Part shown: piece after piece, positions 29,893 through 41,887 of the stretch
Numbering within the stretch: the stretch's first letter is position 1
Layout of the letters: each line of letters starts with the position of its first letter
Translations under genes and position numbers: made by a program
Source of the DNA: a bacterium
GTDB lineage: Bacteria; Babelota; Babeliae; Babelales; Vermiphilaceae
NCBI GenBank assembly: GCA_021818945.1
Contig: JAKASV010000006.1
Location: 1-54,561 of the forward strand
DNA: 54,561 nucleotides
Direction of reading: 5' to 3'
Notes under the pieces: generated by a model
What the model was told of the DNA's origin: nothing
The model's database searches: none
What the model saw: the letters and a program-made list of their open reading frames with translations, nothing else

Positions 29893-30879
29893 ATGGATGT
29901 CAATCCAAATAAAAATATAATTGATGAAATAAAAGAAGAGAGTTTACGGTTTCAGGGTCTGGCGGTTGAAGTTTCAAAGGTAATTGTAGGCCAAAAAGAG
30001 GTCATCGATTTCATTTTGAATGCTATTTTATGTAATGGACATATTCTATTAGAAGGTGTGCCGGGTATTGCTAAAACAACCATGATTAAAGCGATGGCTA
30101 AGGCTCTCGGGCTGCATTTTAATCGTATTCAATTTACACCGGATCTATTGCCAGCAGATTTAATTGGTACACTCATTTACAACCCTAAAATGCAAGAATT
30201 TGAAACAAAAAAAGGACCAATTTTTGCCAATCTTATTCTAGCTGATGAAATCAATCGTGCTCCTGCAAAAGTTCAATCAGCTCTTCTTGAAGCTATGCAG
30301 GAACATCAGGTTACCATTGGATCAAATACCTTTAAACTTGCAGAGCCTTTTTTAGTTTTTGCAACGCAAAATCCGATAGAACAGGAAGGGACATATCGGT
30401 TACCAGAAGCCCAGGTTGATCGTTTTATGTTTAAACTGCTTGTCCATTATCCAAGCCTTAAAGAAGAACATGAAATCGTAAAACGTTCTTTATCACTTGA
30501 TAGTATTTCAAAGTTGCTTTCGAAAGAAGATATTGAACGTGCGCAAGAACTTGTATCACGTGTATATATGGACGAAAAAATTATTGATTATATCGTTAAT
30601 ATAGTCTTTGCTACGCGCGAGCCAGCTAATTTTCAACTCAAGGAATTGCATCCTCTTATTTTGTATGGTGTTTCGCCGCGAGCAACTCTGGCATTATTTG
30701 GTGCATCAAAGGCGCATGCATTCTTAAAGCGTCGTCATTTTGTTACTCCCGATGATGTAAAGGCAGTATGTCCAGCAATTTTGCGTCACCGTCTTGTGCT
30801 CACCTATGATGCAGAAGCAGAAAATGTCAAGCCCGATGCAATTATACAAAAAATTTTGAACACGGTACCAACTCCATGA
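29893..30879 (+). CDS. MoxR-family AAA+ ATPase
   Basis: MoxR ATPases are cytosolic chaperone-like machines that help assemble or activate protein complexes. The 328-residue protein has Walker A EGVPGIAKTT, Walker B LILADEINRAPAKVQSALLEAMQE, sensor 1 ATQNPIEQEGTYRLPEAQVDRF and the lid domain with GVSPRATLAL. Typical partners (DUF58 and von Willebrand factor proteins) do not follow here; a secretion-type cluster does, beginning about 115 nt downstream. Whether it serves that cluster is an inference from position only. Confidence 0.95.
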   Translation: MDVNPNKNIIDEIKEESLRFQGLAVEVSKVIVGQKEVIDFILNAILCNGHILLEGVPGIAKTTMIKAMAKALGLHFNRIQFTPDLLPADLIGTLIYNPKMQEFETKKGPIFANLILADEINRAPAKVQSALLEAMQEHQVTIGSNTFKLAEPFLVFATQNPIEQEGTYRLPEAQVDRFMFKLLVHYPSLKEEHEIVKRSLSLDSISKLLSKEDIERAQELVSRVYMDEKIIDYIVNIVFATREPANFQLKELHPLILYGVSPRATLALFGASKAHAFLKRRHFVTPDDVKAVCPAILRHRLVLTYDAEAENVKPDAIIQKILNTVPTP

Positions 30880-30933: not shown

Positions 30934-30963
30934 TTGACAAATTTCTTATATGGGGGGTATTGT
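30934..30963 (+). promoter_or_regulatory. Candidate promoter of the secretion-type cluster
   Basis: A consensus TTGACA (30934-30939) is followed after 18 nt by TATTGT (30958-30963), which matches four of six -10 bases. The resulting leader would be about 25 nt before the GspC-like gene. It would separate the cluster from MoxR, although readthrough is possible. Confidence 0.45.
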
Positions 30964-30993
30964 GGAAAAGTATACTAAAAAAGGGAAGGCTTG

Positions 30994-32103
30994 ATGAAAC
31001 AGCCAGTATGGATCCTCAATAGTTCTTTGCTGTTATTATTAGGTATTGTGGGCTTGTTTATTTTGGCTTCGCGAGAAAGAGTTCCCTCACGACAGGTAAT
31101 TAGTCCAGAACCGGCAGCAGTTGAAGTAAGTGCCGAACGGCCAACCATCAGCAGCAAAAAAATATGGGAAAAAGATTTGTTCGGTACGATTATTGTAGTA
31201 CCTCCGGCAAAGCCAACAGATCTTGTACCAGAAATGCCACCTGCCCCCGTAGCGAGACCACCAATTGTTCCTGCAATGCCGACTCCTGTTTTTTTACCAC
31301 CGCTCAATGTAACATTAAAAGGGATCGTAACTGTTTCGCATGATGAATCGAGGAACCGCGCCATTATTGCAGACAACAAAACAACTCAGGAAGGAGTTTA
31401 TAAGACAGGAGATACAATCGAAGATGCTCAATTAATGCGCATATTCTCTAATAAAGTTGTGCTCGTACGTTCTAATGGTCAACAAGAAGTGCTTTATCTC
31501 AGAGAAAAAGATGCTAAAACTGATCCTATGTTTGCTGTACTGAGTGGTTGGGCTGATATAGTACATGAAGTACGTCCTACTGAATATACCATTGATCCTG
31601 TATTGTTTGCAGATCGTGTTAAAAGTCTTGCGCAATTTATCGATATTTTTGACCTAACAACAGTATATAAAAAAGGTCAAAATGTAGGATGTCGTATAGG
31701 TAACCTTGAAAAAGATTCGCTTGGCATACTCCTTGGTTTCCAACTAGGTGATATTATTGTGCGGATCAACAATATTCCTGCAACTGACACGGCTCATCGA
31801 TTAAAAATATATAAAGAATTGACTAAATTACCTATTGAGGGGAAACAGATTGTTGTTGAATTTCTTCGTCGCAAGCAGCCAATGTCTATACACATAACGT
31901 TGGAACAAATAAGACCAAAGCCAACCTTAGAAAATATTAAAAAAGTTCCAGTTATTCCACAAACTGCTGAAGATGTGAAAGAAAAAGAATTGAGAACGTT
32001 ACGCGAAAAATTTAATTTTGCTCCAACGTTACAAGAGATACGAGAACGGGAACGGACACATATGGTACAACCAGAAAAAGCGGAAAAACCCGAGCATAGT
32101 TGA
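30994..32103 (+). CDS. GspC-like inner-membrane protein of a type II secretion-type system
   Basis: The 369-residue protein has one N-terminal transmembrane helix (SSLLLLLGIVGLFILA), a proline-rich periplasmic linker (about 60-100), an HR-like domain with VTLKGIVTVSHDES and GVYKTGDTIEDAQLMRIFSNKVVLVR (about 103-160), and a PDZ-like domain (about 225-310, GILLGFQLGDIIVRINNIPATDT). In type II systems GspC links the inner-membrane platform to the secretin. GspC is always next to gspD, as here. ATG 30994 is used in place of the adjoining TTG. The tail is charged and overlaps the secretin gene region. Confidence 0.85.
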   Translation: MKQPVWILNSSLLLLLGIVGLFILASRERVPSRQVISPEPAAVEVSAERPTISSKKIWEKDLFGTIIVVPPAKPTDLVPEMPPAPVARPPIVPAMPTPVFLPPLNVTLKGIVTVSHDESRNRAIIADNKTTQEGVYKTGDTIEDAQLMRIFSNKVVLVRSNGQQEVLYLREKDAKTDPMFAVLSGWADIVHEVRPTEYTIDPVLFADRVKSLAQFIDIFDLTTVYKKGQNVGCRIGNLEKDSLGILLGFQLGDIIVRINNIPATDTAHRLKIYKELTKLPIEGKQIVVEFLRRKQPMSIHITLEQIRPKPTLENIKKVPVIPQTAEDVKEKELRTLREKFNFAPTLQEIRERERTHMVQPEKAEKPEHS

Positions 32104-32111
32104 GTAAACGT

Positions 32112-34940
32112 ATGAATAGATTAAAAAAAATTGAATCCTTTTGTGTTGCAAGTTTATGTGCATTGCAGCTTTGTGGTCAAGGTCCTGTAGCGGTAGAAAA
32201 TAAAGCTGTGGGTGCCAAAGTAACTGAGGAGAAGCAAAATCTGCAACCTTCGCCTGTAGCTTTTCCTGTGCCCGACCAACCACCGCAACCATCTATGGTA
32301 CCTCAAGAATTGACAATGCCCCAAGACTTGTTGCCATCGGCTGGACCGTCAGTTGAGGAGGTTCAAAAAGTTCAGACAGTAGAACCAGAGGTACCAGTAA
32401 TAGAAATGCCACAATCACCAAAGCCTACCGCCCCTTCTGTACCTATCACACGAATATTGCCACCAAAATCACGAGTGCCTCAACAAGAGCAAGGACAGTC
32501 ACCACAAACTAAAGTCTCATTAGATGAACAACAAGCAGGGTCGAAGTTCGCTATGCGCTCAGACCATCTTCATGATGATTCAGCTGCATTAGAGAATCTT
32601 GCCGTTCGCTCACACGATGTCAAAAAACATCTCAGCGTTCCTCCTCCAGATGAAGATGATGAGCGTATTGATTTTCAATTCGAGAATACCGATCTAAAGA
32701 ATGTTATTCAGCAAGTTGGAGACCTGTTTAATGTAACATTCGTTACAGATGATATTATTAATCCTCTGCCCCAAGGAGCTGCTGCAACCACCGGCAGCAA
32801 AATATCCTTCAGAACTCAAAAATCTATGACAAAAAAACAGGCCTGGAATATGTTTTTGAGTTTCTTGGATATTGCAGGGTTTGCTGTTGTACCAGAGAAA
32901 TCACCACGCAGATATCGCATTGTTGCATTGCAAAAAGCGCTGAAAGCGGCAGAACCTGTTTATATTGGGGTTGATCCGGTAACGTTGCCCGATAATGATC
33001 AAATTATACGGTTCGTTTATTTTGTAGAAAATGGCAATATGGCGGTCATACAAAGTGTTGTTAATAAGTTACGTAGTTCAACATCAGATCTAGTATCGTT
33101 GGGTGATGCAAAGGCGTTTATTTTAACTGATAAGTCATATAATATCAAAACGCTTATGGTAATTGTCAAAGAGCTTGATCGTGTGAGTATGCCCCAATCG
33201 ATGTCTGTAATGAAATTATATCGTGCAGATGCCAAAGATGTAAAAGCATTATTTGATCAATTAATGGGGACCGAAGAAAGCAAGCAACAGCCGATGTTTA
33301 TGCCGCCGCGCCAACAACCAACGGCCCTGTATTTTGCTGCCAACACACGCTTGATAGCGGAACCAAGAACCAATTCACTTATTATTCTTGGTACACCAGA
33401 ATCGATCGAAAAAATAGAAAATTTTATTCGTAAAAATGTTGATAAAGATCCTGATACGCCTCATTCACCACTCTTTTATTATGATTTAAAATTTGCTGAT
33501 GCTCGAACGGTCAAAAAAATTCTTGAGGATACTGTTGGCAAATTTGGTACAGATACTGAAGCAGGAAAAGTCGGAGGTATTCGTGGTATTGATAAGTATA
33601 TAAGACCGATGGCTTTCATCGATGATCCTGCAACTAATCGTATTATAATGAAAGGTGATTATCAGGATTATATCATGGTAAAAGATCTGATTGCCCAAAT
33701 CGATCAACCTCAACCACAAGCTGCAATTGAAGTTTTAGTACTTTTAGTCAGCTGGTCTAAAATCAAACAGTTGGGTACGCAGATTAGAAATTATATGAAA
33801 GCTTGTGGAGGCTTTGGTTCAGAGAACATTCAGTTCCAGACTTCTGGGCTTGCAGGAAATAGTGGTATTGTGGAGCGACGAAAACCGAATGGTAGTACTG
33901 AATCTACTATACCGAATCGTCTTATGGGTAACCTTTTGGATCTTGTCACGGGATTAGCTTCCGGTAATACAATCATAACGCTTGGTCGTGATATATTCGG
34001 TGTCTGGGGTATCATTCAAATGCTCGAGAGCTTCGTAGCAGCAGAAACTGTAGCTAACCCATTCTTATTAGCTGCGAATAAGCAGAAAGCTGTCGTAGAA
34101 GTTGGTGAAATCCGTCGTGTTATCACATCTGAAATTGTACAAAATGCGAGCCAATCAACACCAACATTTGATGATATGAAAGCAACATTAAAAGTTGAAG
34201 TCACCCCACAGATAAATTCAGATGGTATGATCACGCTTGATATTCTTGTGTCAATTGTTAACTTTTTAGCTGGCTCAACTGCTGAAACCGTGGCACAAGA
34301 GACACGAGAAATCACCACTAAGGCAATTGTTACAGATCGTGAAGTTTTAGCTCTAGGTGGGTTGATAAGAAACAACTCGAATCAGAATCTCGCCAAAGTA
34401 CCGTTACTTAGTGATGTGCCATTGTTGGGTTGGCTATTCAAAAATGAAAGTAGGACCGATCAACGGGATTGCTTGCTGATTCTTTTCTCAACTCAAATTA
34501 TAGATCCATTGTCTCCTACCGCTGCAGCCAGATTTACCCGGCATCATATTGATGATTATTATGGTACGTTGGATACGATGATACATACATCCGAACGACG
34601 GGATCCTATCTATAGAATGTTCTTTAAGGAAGATCCAAAGAGTGTTGGCAATCGTGTACAAGACTTTATCTTTGAAAAACCAAAAAAACGTACAAAAAAG
34701 GCACAGGCTGAGCTGGAAGAACTTAAAAAAGAACATCCTGTTCTTGCCGATCAACCGGAAGTTTTGGAAACTTTTGTTTCTAAAAAGGAAAAATTAAAAG
34801 AAAAGAACGTAGTGAAAATACCTGTGACAGAAGAAGTAAAGCAGGCACCAATGAATGCTGTGGCAAATAATAATGCAAGCAAACGCCGAGCCAAGGTGTC
34901 ATTAACTCATGATATACTTGATAATCAGGAAATGGCATGA
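32112..34940 (+). CDS. Secretin, GspD-like (copy 1)
   Basis: A 942-residue outer-membrane channel subunit. After a signal region comes a proline/glutamine-rich stretch (about 25-185). The N0-type domain starts near 187 (DFQFENTDLKNVIQQVGDLF), N1-N3-like repeats follow (NSLIILGTPESIEKIENFI; TNRIIMKGDYQDYIMVKDLI), and the secretin core includes VEVGEIRRVITSEIV near 662 and VLALGGLIRNNSNQNLAKVPLLSDVPLLGWLF. A charged C-terminal extension includes RDPIYRMFFKEDP at about 830. Canonical GspD is about 650-700 residues, so this form is enlarged at both ends. The start overlaps the GspC stop closely; the stop overlaps the next start (ATGA). Confidence 0.93.
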   Translation: MNRLKKIESFCVASLCALQLCGQGPVAVENKAVGAKVTEEKQNLQPSPVAFPVPDQPPQPSMVPQELTMPQDLLPSAGPSVEEVQKVQTVEPEVPVIEMPQSPKPTAPSVPITRILPPKSRVPQQEQGQSPQTKVSLDEQQAGSKFAMRSDHLHDDSAALENLAVRSHDVKKHLSVPPPDEDDERIDFQFENTDLKNVIQQVGDLFNVTFVTDDIINPLPQGAAATTGSKISFRTQKSMTKKQAWNMFLSFLDIAGFAVVPEKSPRRYRIVALQKALKAAEPVYIGVDPVTLPDNDQIIRFVYFVENGNMAVIQSVVNKLRSSTSDLVSLGDAKAFILTDKSYNIKTLMVIVKELDRVSMPQSMSVMKLYRADAKDVKALFDQLMGTEESKQQPMFMPPRQQPTALYFAANTRLIAEPRTNSLIILGTPESIEKIENFIRKNVDKDPDTPHSPLFYYDLKFADARTVKKILEDTVGKFGTDTEAGKVGGIRGIDKYIRPMAFIDDPATNRIIMKGDYQDYIMVKDLIAQIDQPQPQAAIEVLVLLVSWSKIKQLGTQIRNYMKACGGFGSENIQFQTSGLAGNSGIVERRKPNGSTESTIPNRLMGNLLDLVTGLASGNTIITLGRDIFGVWGIIQMLESFVAAETVANPFLLAANKQKAVVEVGEIRRVITSEIVQNASQSTPTFDDMKATLKVEVTPQINSDGMITLDILVSIVNFLAGSTAETVAQETREITTKAIVTDREVLALGGLIRNNSNQNLAKVPLLSDVPLLGWLFKNESRTDQRDCLLILFSTQIIDPLSPTAAARFTRHHIDDYYGTLDTMIHTSERRDPIYRMFFKEDPKSVGNRVQDFIFEKPKKRTKKAQAELEELKKEHPVLADQPEVLETFVSKKEKLKEKNVVKIPVTEEVKQAPMNAVANNNASKRRAKVSLTHDILDNQEMA

Positions 34941-36547
34941 TAAAAAATATTTTTATTCCAGAATCCATCGGTGATTATTATGTATTTCCAAAACGTATCC
35001 TGAGTTTTGATATTGGAAGAACCTATGTTCATGCTGTGCAAGTGTATCTTAAGGGACGCACCATGCGCATCGAAAAATTTCTTGAAGAAAAAATTGAACC
35101 GGGTACTGCTGCAACTCTTCCGGATCGCACTGCTGATGCAATAAAAAATATTGCGGCCCATGCAGATCAATATCATGCTCTGTATGCAGCGATTAATAGT
35201 TCAGTTGTGGTTTTTAAAGAGCTTGCCTTACCTTTTTTAGAGTATGAAAAAATCAAGATGGTTCTCAACTATGAGGTTGAGCCATTGTTGCCATTTGCTG
35301 GTGCGCATGCGGTGATAGATTTTATTATTACCAAACAAAATATAGAAGAAAAAAAATCGACAATATTGGTTGCTGCAGTACTTAAGGAGCATTTAGCGCA
35401 ATATCTTAGTTTGTTTGGCACTGCAGGAATAGATCCTCAGGTCGTCACTCTTGATTTATTTGCACTTTATGGACTTTATAAGAGTATCCCTGAATACGCC
35501 AATGAAGCGGATAACGTTGTGCTTATTGATTTTGGTGTACATGCAACGCGTATAGCTTTTATTAACAATGGACAGCTCAAATATATAAGAACACTGTCTA
35601 AAGGGCTCATACATATAGCAAAAATGATGAGTGATGAACTTAAAATTCAGCCATCTGATGCTATGGAACAGATTATGCGATTCGGGCTGGAGCATCAAGA
35701 AGATTCTACGTATAATACAGTCATGACGCGTGTGCTGACGACATTTTGGAGCGAAATAGATTTTACCATCCGATCGTTCTCAACGCTGGTAGGCCAAGAA
35801 GTTATGACAAAAATACTTCTTCTTGGTAGAGGATCTGAAATTAAAGATATTTGTCGTTTTATAACAACTGTGTTTAATAAGCAATGTGCATTGTTTTCTG
35901 TAATATCTTTATTGCAGGATTCAAAAATTGTTGTGTCCAGTGTTAATCATGTGCCGCGCTCACATTTTATTTGCCTTAGTTCAGTGTTTCCGTCAAAGAT
36001 TACCAATCGTTTTAATTTGTTAAGTGGTGATTTTGCTCCCTCAGATAAAGGATTATTTAATAAACAAATTATTGTAGGGATAACCTTATTATCTTTACTG
36101 TTTTGCGCTCTCTTGTTTTCGACATTTTGGCGGCTCCATTCGCTAAAAGCTGAGCTGAGAGCTTCTAATCAGCAGGCGGTATCCGCATTGAAAGACCGCT
36201 TTAAGGGAATTAAGGGTTCTGTATTAAATGGTGTTATGAATGAGGCACAAAATCAATTAAATAAACAAGAACAAGCAGTAGCCTTTTTGGATCCTTCCAA
36301 ACCATCAATGCTGGAATATCTTTTGGAATTGACTAATAAAATAGACAAGAAAGAAACAGGTCTGAAAATTGAAAGTCTTGTCATTGAAGGTGACAAGATG
36401 CGACTGAAGGCAAGAGTTCGGGATTTTCCTGCATTAAAAATACTTGAAAAGAATCTTCACGATTCAAAGATGTTTGAATTTCAACCACTCGATAGTCTTG
36501 ATTTTGATCGCGAGATTACCTTAGTACCACAGGCCGGGGAAGTATAA
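34937..36547 (+). CDS. PilM/GspL-like actin-fold protein with membrane anchor
   Basis: The 536-residue protein has an N-terminal actin-like domain (about 18-340): ILSFDIGRTYVHAVQVYL, AAINSSVVVFKELALPF, VVLIDFGVHATRIAFINN and ILLLGRGSEIKDICRFI are the phosphate and adenosine segments of PilM/GspL. A transmembrane helix (about 377-398, IVGITLLSLLFCALLFSTFW) and a periplasmic coiled region follow, ending in a PilN-like ferredoxin fold (GLKIESLVIEGDKMRLKARV). It thus combines PilM and PilN parts, as GspL does. It overlaps the secretin stop by four bases and abuts the PilO-like gene. Confidence 0.88.
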   Translation: MIKNIFIPESIGDYYVFPKRILSFDIGRTYVHAVQVYLKGRTMRIEKFLEEKIEPGTAATLPDRTADAIKNIAAHADQYHALYAAINSSVVVFKELALPFLEYEKIKMVLNYEVEPLLPFAGAHAVIDFIITKQNIEEKKSTILVAAVLKEHLAQYLSLFGTAGIDPQVVTLDLFALYGLYKSIPEYANEADNVVLIDFGVHATRIAFINNGQLKYIRTLSKGLIHIAKMMSDELKIQPSDAMEQIMRFGLEHQEDSTYNTVMTRVLTTFWSEIDFTIRSFSTLVGQEVMTKILLLGRGSEIKDICRFITTVFNKQCALFSVISLLQDSKIVVSSVNHVPRSHFICLSSVFPSKITNRFNLLSGDFAPSDKGLFNKQIIVGITLLSLLFCALLFSTFWRLHSLKAELRASNQQAVSALKDRFKGIKGSVLNGVMNEAQNQLNKQEQAVAFLDPSKPSMLEYLLELTNKIDKKETGLKIESLVIEGDKMRLKARVRDFPALKILEKNLHDSKMFEFQPLDSLDFDREITLVPQAGEV

Positions 36548-37105
36548 ATGGAATATTTTGACAAATTAAAAGCTAAACTCGAGACGCTTGATGAAAAGCA
36601 ATTTTACACCTATGTCTTTGGAGCTTTGGGTCTGCTATTATTGATTATTTCGTTCATAGTATTTTATTATTATAGGTCTGCACATTATTATAATCGTCAG
36701 CTTAAAGATCTTAATAATATGAGATCTGGCCAAATCAGACAAATTTTAACCAAGGCGGGTCAAATAAAAAAGCAGAAAGAAAAACTTGATGCAATGCTTG
36801 CGCAAGATCCTGAATTTAAGTTAACCGGATATCTTGAAACAGTCCTTGCAAAGTTGAATCTCAGTGAACGAAAAGATATTAGTCAGTCCCCTCGATATAT
36901 CGAGATTGATGATAAATATACCGAAAATGAACTTGAATTTACTTTGAATGATATCAACATGAAACAACTTGTTGAGTTTTTGGCTGCTATTGAAAGTAAT
37001 CGACGAGTCTATACTAAAAAATTGGAAATAACAAAATCAAAGACAACGCAAAGCAGCTTGGAAGTGCATATTACAATTGCAACGTTGTTTCCTAAAGTGA
37101 CATAA
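36548..37105 (+). CDS. PilO/GspM-like inner-membrane protein
   Basis: The 185-residue protein has one transmembrane helix (about 19-42, FGALGLLLLIISFIVFYYY), a periplasmic coiled coil (RQLKDLNNMRSGQIRQILTK, KKQKEKLDAMLAQ) and a C-terminal ferredoxin-like fold (ELEFTLNDINMKQLVEFLAAIE to KKLEITKS). This is the layout of GspM and PilO, the partners of GspL and PilN. It starts one base after the preceding stop codon. The order C-D-L-M matches part of a type II secretion operon. Confidence 0.82.
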   Translation: MEYFDKLKAKLETLDEKQFYTYVFGALGLLLLIISFIVFYYYRSAHYYNRQLKDLNNMRSGQIRQILTKAGQIKKQKEKLDAMLAQDPEFKLTGYLETVLAKLNLSERKDISQSPRYIEIDDKYTENELEFTLNDINMKQLVEFLAAIESNRRVYTKKLEITKSKTTQSSLEVHITIATLFPKVT

Positions 37106-37131
37106 TGTAACAGACAGATGGGACGGACTTT

Positions 37132-39900
37132 ATGAATAGAATGCGAATCAAGAATTCCTACGTTATTTTGGGTAGTTTATGTATGAGCTCGATGCTCATT
37201 GCAGCAATGGCAAATGTGGAGAACTCAGCTACACAAAATGTCCCATTGGACCGTAGATCAGACAAACAAATTAAAAAATCATCACTTAAAAAAAAGAATT
37301 TTTCCTTTAAATTTACTGATGAAAATCTGATAGACGTTATTAATATTGTGGCAGAAAAAAAAGGCGCGAATGTATTATTGCCGACTGGTGCCAGTGCTAT
37401 AAATGCCAAAGTAACTATTGCAATTGAAGAAAAAATGTCTATTGACAAGGCTTGGAAATTTTTAATACAAGTTTTAGATATAGCCGGCTATAGCGTTATT
37501 CCACGATCAGGTATGTTCGAGGTAGTTAAAACCACACCAGATGTTGCTCGAGAACCATTACCTATCTATATAGGGGTGCCATGGGAACAGATTCCAGATA
37601 CGGACCAACGGATTCGCTGTGTATTTTATTTGAGTAATATTAAAGTTCCCGGCGATCCGCCAGAGCCGGAAAATGAGCTATATAAGGTTATAACTGGACT
37701 TATGCCAAATGGCCAGACTGGATTGCAAGATCCGCTTTCACCTAGGCTGGCATTCGATCCTGTTACCAATGCGCTTATCATTGCAGAACGTGCAAGTATT
37801 GTGCGTTCGATTATGCAAATAGTTACTGCTCTTGATACAACAGGTTTTAAAGAAAAAATTGAGATGCTTACACTCTTTAATACAGTGGCATCAGATGTAA
37901 GACAGATATTTGATAAGATAATGGCACCTCCGACACGACCACTTTATGGGCTTGATACACGTAAAGCAACTACAGAAGCAACCTATTTTTCAAAGTTTGT
38001 GCGTATTATTGAATATGGACGACTCAATATGCTCATTATTGTGGGCCGTGAGCAGGCGGTTGATCGAGTTAGAGATTTTATTCTAAAATATATTGATGTG
38101 GCTCAAGATACAGGGCAATCGGTCTTTCATACCTATGCATTGCAATATCTGGATGCAGCAGATTTTTCACTAATCTTGCAAAATATCGTTAAGTCTTCAC
38201 TTACTGGAGGAACTGGTCAATCATATGCGGAAGGTCCTCAGCAGCAAAAAGGTGGTACCGAACGTATGTTTGAAGGTGTGTGCATCACGCATGACAGACC
38301 GGCAGAGGCCGGTGTTTCTGCAGGTGGTACAGGTCCTGAAGCTACCGCAGAGGCTGTCTATTATGGTGGAAATCGATTAATTATTGCAGCACGTCAAGAT
38401 GACTGGTTGCGTATAAAAAAATTATGTGAAGAACTGGACACACCTCAACCACAAGTCATTATTGAAGTTCTTGTAGCAGATCTGACGCTTGATGATACGC
38501 GAACTATTGCTTCTATGTTGCGTAATCCTCTAACCGTTCCGCTTATTGGTGATGTCCAATTTCAATCTGCACAACTTGCAAGAGGTATTCTTGTTAATGA
38601 TCTTGATCTAAATGATGGACTTTCTCCGGCTACTGTTGGTCTTGATAATATTAATCATAGTAATGATGTTGATATTCTTAAAGATGCATATAATAATAGT
38701 AAACCGCCAGTTCCACTAACTACCGAAACACCTGAAGCCACTAATCAAAGTATTGTATCGGCGGCGGCACCAGGGACTATGGCAGTTTCATTGATTGATC
38801 CATGCACCAAAAAAGTATGGAGCTTATTAGAAATTCAGAATGTACTCACGGATCGACAAGTGCTTTCTAACCCACATATTATTGCGGTTAATAATAAGCA
38901 AACAAAATTAGTGATTGGTGAGTCTCGATTGGTCAAGGATGCTGCCGTTGGTAACCAGGGTGGTAACGCGACACTTCCACGAAAAAATATTAAGGCAAAT
39001 TTAGTACTTAATATTAAACCGCGCATCTGTCTTTCGCCTGATGGTGATCCCGCTAATGATACAATCCAGCTGGGGATTGTTGTAGATATTGATGACTTCC
39101 AGACTGTTAATTTTACTATCAGTACACCTGAAAATCCTGAAGCTGCAAACAGATTTACCAGGCATGTGGTCACGAGTGCACAGGTACGTAACCGGGAAGT
39201 TATTCCCATTGGCGGCTTGATAAGACGCGAAGCGAGTCAGACTGCATCAGAGACACCTATTTTGGGAAAAATTCCGATTATCGGTTATTTTTTCAAAAAT
39301 AGAAATGGTATTGCAGTGGATACCAATTTAACCGTATTTTTATGTCCTACCGTGGTTCGACCACGGCTGCGACGTGGTGGTATAGATCGGTATACCAGAG
39401 ATTATGTAAAATTAACAAAGCGATATGCTCAAGAAGGCCAGTTATTTGATTCGCTCAAAGATCCTGTCACACGATGGTTCTTTAATACAGAATCAGATGT
39501 TATTGATACGGTCAATGACTTTTTATCTAATGATGAGTTAAAAAAAGATAAAGAGCTCAGAATTTTGACAAAGCGTTCAAAAATAAGGCAAGAGGCACAC
39601 CAACAACGAATTGCAAAAGAACAAGAATATCTTGAAAAGCGAGCAATACCAGAAGAGCCGCGGGCGATGAATGAGATTGTGTCTACGCCGGTCAGTCAGT
39701 TACATGAGGCAGAAAAATTATCGATGCCTGCGCCTGAGCTGAATGCTGAAATGTTAGAGTCCAAACCGATTCAGGAGGCATGCAGGCAAACAATGCTTCT
39801 TGCTTCTCAAAAAGAACAGGTATTGGACGATAAAGAGGCCAGACTAAAATCGCTCATAAAGGACGAAGAAAATCCGCTCCATCAATGTATGCCGGCGTGA
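37132..39900 (+). CDS. Second secretin-like protein (copy 2)
   Basis: The 922-residue protein has an N-terminal signal-like segment and an N0-type domain (about 56, FSFKFTDENLIDVINIVAEKK). N1-N3-like modules follow (TNALIIAERASIVRSIMQIV; NRLIIAARQDDWLRIKKLCEEL), then a secretin core with VLSNPHIIAVNNKQTKLVIG and VIPIGGLIRREASQTASETPILGKIPIIGYFF. The C-terminal extension has KDPVTRWFFNTES at about 777, like RDPIYRMFFKEDP of the first secretin. The two are distant paralogues. An insertion of about 100 residues (around 470-570) sits before the core. It may form a mixed or alternative channel, or be specialised for other substrates. Confidence 0.88.
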   Translation: MNRMRIKNSYVILGSLCMSSMLIAAMANVENSATQNVPLDRRSDKQIKKSSLKKKNFSFKFTDENLIDVINIVAEKKGANVLLPTGASAINAKVTIAIEEKMSIDKAWKFLIQVLDIAGYSVIPRSGMFEVVKTTPDVAREPLPIYIGVPWEQIPDTDQRIRCVFYLSNIKVPGDPPEPENELYKVITGLMPNGQTGLQDPLSPRLAFDPVTNALIIAERASIVRSIMQIVTALDTTGFKEKIEMLTLFNTVASDVRQIFDKIMAPPTRPLYGLDTRKATTEATYFSKFVRIIEYGRLNMLIIVGREQAVDRVRDFILKYIDVAQDTGQSVFHTYALQYLDAADFSLILQNIVKSSLTGGTGQSYAEGPQQQKGGTERMFEGVCITHDRPAEAGVSAGGTGPEATAEAVYYGGNRLIIAARQDDWLRIKKLCEELDTPQPQVIIEVLVADLTLDDTRTIASMLRNPLTVPLIGDVQFQSAQLARGILVNDLDLNDGLSPATVGLDNINHSNDVDILKDAYNNSKPPVPLTTETPEATNQSIVSAAAPGTMAVSLIDPCTKKVWSLLEIQNVLTDRQVLSNPHIIAVNNKQTKLVIGESRLVKDAAVGNQGGNATLPRKNIKANLVLNIKPRICLSPDGDPANDTIQLGIVVDIDDFQTVNFTISTPENPEAANRFTRHVVTSAQVRNREVIPIGGLIRREASQTASETPILGKIPIIGYFFKNRNGIAVDTNLTVFLCPTVVRPRLRRGGIDRYTRDYVKLTKRYAQEGQLFDSLKDPVTRWFFNTESDVIDTVNDFLSNDELKKDKELRILTKRSKIRQEAHQQRIAKEQEYLEKRAIPEEPRAMNEIVSTPVSQLHEAEKLSMPAPELNAEMLESKPIQEACRQTMLLASQKEQVLDDKEARLKSLIKDEENPLHQCMPA

Positions 39901-41225: not shown

Positions 41226-41834
41226 TTATTTGTCCTTAAGAATTTTTATAATCGCTTTACCGAATGCTTGTGCTGAATTTGGCCCATCGGCTGTGATAAT
41301 GTTCCCATCTGTCACAACAGGTTGTTTATTGTATATAACCTGATACTGTTTAAAAATGTCGTCTAATTTATTATCATCATTCCAACCGGTAGCTTTTTTA
41401 CCTTCTAGTATTCCGGCTTTTGCCAAAATGCGCGGTGAATAGCAAATTGCTCCTATAGCTTTACCTGACGAATATGCATTGCGCATTGTTGAGTATATCA
41501 GTTGGGTATCAAGTTCTGCATGTGCGCCAGGTCCTCCAATAATAAAAATGCCGTCATATTTTTTGTAATCAAATTTGTTGAGTACTTTATCAACGAGGGT
41601 TCGAGTGCCATCGGTTGCATATGCATACCCGCTTTTTGGACTCACCGTTATTACATTAAATCCAGCTTGATTGAGAACACGTTTGGTATCTTTATACTCT
41701 ACTGGTTGGTAGTCTTTAGACGCGACAATGAGAACAATTTGCCTTTTATGGTTTCTGATTGCTTTTTCAAATTTCTCAGAGGATACACAGGTTAATGATA
41801 TCATCAAACATCCAAAGCATGCTTTATAATTCAT
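41226..41834 (-). CDS. Exported DJ-1/PfpI-family protein (copy 3)
   Basis: The 202-residue product starts with a signal-like segment (YKACFGCLMISLTCVSS) and then the class-I glutamine-amidotransferase-like fold: QIVLIVASKDYQPVEYKDT, GIFIIGGPGAHAELD and the nucleophile elbow AIGAICYSPRILAKAG with Cys131. Members act as glyoxalases, deglycases, proteases or stress sensors; which applies here is not visible. It is the third of three tandem paralogues and lies 17 nt from enolase. Its periplasmic location is predicted only from the signal sequence. Confidence 0.85.
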   Translation of the reverse strand: MNYKACFGCLMISLTCVSSEKFEKAIRNHKRQIVLIVASKDYQPVEYKDTKRVLNQAGFNVITVSPKSGYAYATDGTRTLVDKVLNKFDYKKYDGIFIIGGPGAHAELDTQLIYSTMRNAYSSGKAIGAICYSPRILAKAGILEGKKATGWNDDNKLDDIFKQYQVIYNKQPVVTDGNIITADGPNSAQAFGKAIIKILKDK

Positions 41835-41887
41835 GAATATGTCCCTTAGATTGTAATTGCGCTAAACTATGTTTATCAGTTAATCGG

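Follow-up and report, generated by a model that had tools for sequence, protein, structure and literature searches.

The window analysed here is a stretch of 54,561 nucleotides (assembly GCA_021818945.1, contig JAKASV010000006.1, positions 1 to 54,561 of the forward strand) from a bacterium whose named relatives are Candidatus Dependentiae/Babeliales (formerly TM6), and it carries an operon in which two secretin genes, gspD1 and gspD2 (products D1 and D2), stand on either side of gspL and gspM. Such pairing is conserved across the phylum and sets its type II secretion system (T2SS) apart as a variant. Judged by its predicted proteins, the operon almost certainly belongs to a T2SS, and the paired-secretin T2SS of Dependentiae, taken as a whole and apart from the composition of its ring, is held here with good confidence. 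The literature already describes a T2SS in this phylum, in the passages found in PMC4378268, and the proposal of an undescribed system in a sequence-only reading of the window went too far. No published report of paired secretins in Dependentiae was found in a literature search that missed most subscription journals, and the novelty of the pair is unproven.

The secretin pair, its operon and its conservation

Both genes that the sequence-only reading had called secretins contain the secretin core, with Pfam Secretin scores of 115 bits (D1) and 91 bits (D2) at a cut-off of 27.5, and each has a GspD N0 domain, Secretin_N repeats (N1-N3) and the gate motif. The profile search proposed in that reading was performed for both proteins: with the NCBIfam models, D1 scored 251 bits for GspD versus 142 bits for PilQ, and D2 scored 222 versus 77 bits. 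A solved GspD was the top match for both in the profile and fold searches, and no AMIN domain was matched by Pfam in either. D1 and D2 are GspD-type, not PilQ-type, secretins. They had rightly been described as enlarged (946 and 922 amino acids (aa)); the excess is accounted for by a low-complexity stretch of about 165 aa ahead of N0 and a C-terminal tail in D1, and by a low-confidence loop of about 110 aa and a C-terminal tail in D2. Under a strict pattern, most D1 and D2 proteins share a C-terminal motif of the D-P-I-x-x-W-F-F type, 63–72 residues past the start of the gate motif, and this motif was present in 0 of the 43 other secretins examined.

The genes gspC-gspD1-gspL-gspM-gspD2 are co-directional and overlap or lie at most 26 bases apart, in the order and at the positions first given for the window. 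For the conservation analysis, 101 genomes of the phylum (68 near-complete) were scanned, and 60 loci were taken from 60 genomes. Secretins were detected in 96 of the 101 genomes and in 66 of the 68 near-complete ones; all 66 have at least two and none has exactly one, the sole two single-secretin genomes being 87% and 70% complete. The order C-D1-L-M-D2 was observed in 60/60 loci (one of them begins inside D1 at a contig end), with typical spacings of -4 (D1-L), -4 (L-M), and 0 to 20 bases (M-D2). For 36 of the loci the pair was already visible before fetching; the other 24 were chosen on one secretin position, and all 24 were tandem. Outside the phylum, each of 26 loci had one secretin within stretches of up to 10 kb per side; together with 13 genomes, these loci make up a small comparison sample. 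That the pair has been retained throughout a phylum with reduced genomes implies that each copy has an essential task, and its presence in every sampled operon of these protist parasites suggests an exit channel dependent on two distinct gate proteins.

The remaining parts were searched for in the genome of the window (1.25 Mb, 61 contigs, 95% complete). GspF-G-H-I-J-K are encoded in one string on contig C48, next to an MlaD-domain gene; F has a T2SSF match, GspG has a T2SSG match (E=2e-15), three more genes are N-methyl pseudopilins, and the GspK-like gene, without a match in Pfam, was assigned by its position and N-terminus. Contig C55 has a full GspE-type ATPase (MshEN plus T2SSE), C44 a second GspE/PilB-type ATPase with the MshEN domain on a separate gene, C20 a second F gene, C53 one prepilin peptidase (Peptidase_A24), and C29, C17 and C21 further pilin genes. 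No secretin was found in this genome outside the operon, D1 and D2 being its only two. Within the window there is no E, F or N-methyl pilin gene; because all of these are encoded elsewhere in the genome, their absence is a property of the window, not of the organism. The sequence-only reading was right about the window, but the genome as a whole encodes GspE, F, G-K and O, and the idea of a machine without ATPase or pseudopilin has to be given up. The E-K genes adjoin neither secretin, and gspD2 lies in the same gene string as the rest of the operon. By its predicted genes, the genome holds a T2SS with dispersed parts and, besides it, an incomplete second system of the type IV filament kind.

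Some findings weigh against the paired-secretin T2SS. The structure models of D1 and D2 are poor (pTM 0.37), so that the fold matches give modest support only; Pfam matches GspM and GspK weakly or not at all; and one genome (G017) has F-G-H-I-J but no secretin was found in it, perhaps because of an assembly gap.

Ring composition and the origin of D1 and D2

In the favoured explanation, the operon supplies one half of a single T2SS, the outer-membrane and linking parts (GspC, GspD, GspL and GspM), and the genes of the other half, motor and piston (ATPase E, platform F, pseudopilins G-K and prepilin peptidase), lie in other parts of the genome. Duplication of the secretin gene would date back at least to the base of the phylum, with the copies remaining on the flanks of gspL-gspM. 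Sec would deliver proteins to the periplasm, and the pseudopilus would push them through an outer-membrane channel requiring both secretins, in which D1 and D2 would co-assemble in one mixed ring and the two kinds of N0 would contact the single GspC differently.

The phylogeny across relatives, also proposed in the sequence-only reading, placed D1 and D2 in one clade (support 100), apart from outside GspD and from a PilQ-like third secretin that is present in some Dependentiae families, is located elsewhere and forms a separate clade. In the larger tree, D2 of families f6/13/16/17/19 fell on the D1 side (support 98), and in the smaller tree all D2 formed one group (support 85); the history may be one duplication, two, or later replacement. 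The core identity of D1 and D2 was 0.315 within the same genome and 0.298 between genomes, and this slight excess therefore indicates no strong gene conversion. In known T2SS, N0 docks to GspC (PMC3169554). The N0 residues facing GspC, located with the structure of enterotoxigenic Escherichia coli (ETEC) GspD, are similar in the two secretins of the f6 group and dissimilar in most of the phylum; in families f6/13/16/17/19 the N0 domains of D1 and D2 are 49% identical. This gives no decision between the ring models: the N0 divergence could mean that D1 and D2 contact the single GspC differently, or that there are two kinds of ring.

We tentatively favour a mixed D1/D2 ring, because near-complete genomes are never single-copy, the overlap of the genes suggests translational coupling, and the evolutionary distances of D1 and D2 are the most tightly tied (correlation 0.92; partial correlation 0.67 against at most 0.29 for other operon gene pairs), although this correlation is confounded, D1 and D2 being paralogues of one family. 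The suggestion of a mixed channel or specialised machine, already made for the window, survives and is strengthened by the phylum-wide conservation. Apart from this confounding, the following points weigh against the mixed ring. The identity of D1 and D2 in most of the phylum (N0, 25%; N1-N3, 29%; core, 32%) fits both ring models. Known GspD rings are homomeric and mostly of 15 subunits, and strict alternation of D1 and D2 is possible only with an even number. In a mixed ring, the two distinguishable N0 domains could be used to count the secretin subunits touching GspC, a question of stoichiometry (PMC3169554). A stricter form, an obligate hetero-oligomeric channel whose two paralogues divide the labour so that one kind of N0 alone docks to GspC, is less likely than not; if true, it would offer a natural way to reconcile a ring of 12-15 secretins with a platform thought to be six-fold.

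Separate homomeric D1 rings and D2 rings on one inner-membrane platform and pseudopilus, serving different substrates or stages, are an alternative almost as probable as the mixed ring. Each secretin retains the complete architecture of signal peptide, N0-N3 and core, the N0 domains have diverged, D2 alone has been re-duplicated in G004 and G011, and a hybrid secreton with an alternative secretin sets a precedent (PMC6567927). Alternative channels would, however, be expected to be lost singly at times, and 0 near-complete genomes have one secretin; the genes of D1 and D2 always lie within one tightly spaced operon; and this operon has a single GspC gene, whereas the alternative secretin of Pseudomonas has its own GspC.

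The machine served by D2

Both secretins belong with the T2SS, and neither appears to be kept for the second filament system, because exactly two secretins accompany a single F gene in 19 near-complete genomes and because of the losses in G088 (97% complete). The latter genome has a second-type F alone (36% identical to the C20 F and 28% to the C48 F) and one N-methyl pilin, and it has lost GspG–K and both secretins. A compact case among the 19 is G024 (a single contig of 1.17 Mb): besides the full C-D1-L-M-D2 operon it has a single strong E and a single F1-G-H-I-J-K operon, with no N-methyl pilin outside the latter. From this pattern of gene gain and loss, D2 very probably serves this T2SS rather than another pilus. 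Lineages carrying the PilQ-like secretin also retain D1 and D2.

It is improbable that D2 is instead the secretin of a second type IV filament, for a pilus or DNA uptake, merely located in the T2SS operon. The window's genome would allow it, since its second ATPase and second F and its several additional pilins have no third secretin to go with them, and D2 follows PilM/PilO-like genes as PilQ does in pilMNOPQ; but D2 is kept in the 19 genomes without a second F, it is gone with D1 from G088 where the second F is retained, it persists in genomes with a separate PilQ-like secretin, and it fits GspD far above PilQ. Plain redundancy, that is, a tandem duplicate retained by chance or for dosage, is still more improbable: more tandem copies are known (G004, G011, G042, and tandem short secretins in an Omnitrophota genome), but D1 and D2 are on average only about 30% identical, each is conserved through the phylum with signatures of its own, and near-complete reduced genomes (about 1 Mb) are never down to one copy. 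A two-secretin machine lacking ATPase and pseudopilus, to which the gene content of the window would point, can be put aside almost completely, as E, F and the pseudopilins are present on other contigs of this genome and also in relatives, and in G088 the operon is gone together with F1 and G-K.

Features of the window and comparison with known systems

The features are listed in Table 1. The start codon of gspC was called as TTG at 30991, and the ATG at 30994 is probably the true start; its T2SSC match is over the cut-off, and its PDZ match in Pfam is weak (E=0.003). The start of gspL overlaps the stop of gspD1. Neither a PilP lipoprotein nor a separate PilN was found in the operon with gene calls and Pfam. 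A MoxR gene lies 5' of gspC in 52 of the 60 loci and is absent from several with ample flank; it is a common neighbour, not a fixed component.

Table 1. Positions of the secretin operon, its domains and its upstream neighbour in the window
Feature	Position	Strand	Evidence
MoxR-family AAA+ ATPase	29893..30879	+	Pfam AAA_3 E=2e-65; common neighbour 5' of gspC
Promoter-like site 5' of gspC, TTGACA-18-TATTGT	30934..30963	+	10/12 consensus matches; weak, such sites being barely above chance frequency in the region
gspC-like (transmembrane segment, HR-type region, PDZ)	30991..32103	+	T2SSC E=2e-9; NCBIfam GspC_delta 84 bits, under its cut-off
gspD1, secretin 1, 946 aa	32100..34940	+	Pfam; NCBIfam type_II_gspD 251 bits; best match in profile search, solved GspD
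D1 N0 domain	32676..32897	+	PF21305 E=8e-11; aligned to ETEC GspD N0
D1 secretin core with gate motif	34023..34502	+	PF00263 E=3e-33
D1 C-terminal motif D-P-I-x-x-x-F-F, common to D1 and D2	34602..34625	+	Alignments; 0/43 comparison secretins
gspL (PilM-like cytoplasmic part and periplasmic part)	34937..36547	+	PilM_2 E=4e-21; GspL 42 bits
gspM/pilO-like	36548..37105	+	T2SSM E=0.004, under cut-off; position kept in 60 loci
gspD2, secretin 2, 922 aa	37132..39900	+	type_II_gspD 222 bits; best match in profile search, solved GspD
D2 N0 domain	37309..37518	+	PF21305 E=2e-7; weak match to solved GspD N0
D2 secretin core with gate motif	38851..39360	+	PF00263 E=7e-26
D2 C-terminal motif D-P-V-x-R-W-F-F	39460..39483	+	Alignments

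Elsewhere in the window, three DJ-1/PfpI-family genes stand in tandem (41226-43041, minus strand), and two adjoining SurA/parvulin-like genes (43199-45425, plus strand) lie a few kb 3' of the secretins. An MlaD-domain protein follows GspK in the window's genome (L014 1392-2981) and in G024 (L171 4282-5880), as a conserved neighbour of the T2SS operon, and a PilA-like pilin (L017 1439-1915) has a weak FG-GAP match near its C-terminus. Extra tandem copies were observed as D1-D1-L-M-D2-D2 in G042 (L111 6986-18101) and as D2-D2 in G004 (L105) and G011 (L106). In the complete genome AP025250.1 (Dependentiae bacterium Noda2021), D1 is present as two reading frames (440 + 417 aa, 4-base overlap; L141 9674-12246), and similar breaks occur in D1 of G058 (L081) and D2 of G057 (L090); these are split genes, decay or sequencing error. 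Outside the phylum, an Omnitrophota genome with eight secretin matches (G110) has tandem short secretins of 584 and 512 aa on its contig C68 (L181 2240-5543), and planctomycete secretin reading frames of about 4,400-4,500 aa (L144 and L155) scored several hundred bits with the Dependentiae secretin profile.

Among known systems, the T2SS of Babela massiliensis/TM6SC1 (PMC4378268) is from the same phylum. The word 'secretin' is absent from the main text of that paper, and the passages found in it do not mention a pair; according to them, B. massiliensis had no secretion system other than the T2SS. The paper on Chromulinavorax reports signal sequences on 44% of proteins and mentions, for pili, a derived pulD channel (PMC6561590). 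Because of this sole secretion system, as far as those passages go, and the large share of Sec signals in relatives, the T2SS is a likely route to the protist hosts, and host-directed protein export would follow from this published work.

The hybrid secreton of Pseudomonas aeruginosa (Xcp with XphA-XqhA, PaQa) likewise combines two secretins with one T2SS platform. Its second secretin comes with its own GspC, lies outside the xcp locus and is differently controlled (PMC6567927), whereas Dependentiae have one gspC and one operon, conserved through the phylum. The type IVa pilus operon pilMNOPQ similarly has PilM- and PilO-like proteins followed by a secretin; the Dependentiae operon differs in its GspD-type secretins and in having GspC instead of PilP. 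With the C-D-L-M module of the T2SS (for example, Pul of Klebsiella and Eps of Vibrio cholerae) the operon shares GspC with the HR region and PDZ, GspL, a GspM-like protein with a match under the cut-off, and the N0, N1-N3, core and gate of its secretins, and E, F, G-K and O are in the genome. A single secretin is a usual, not a strictly defining, feature of T2SS, and two were found in 60/60 loci. In contrast to Pul and Eps, the Dependentiae system has two secretins per operon in the order C-D-L-M-D, its machine is spread over several contigs, and its secretins exceed 900 aa and have a common C-terminal motif.

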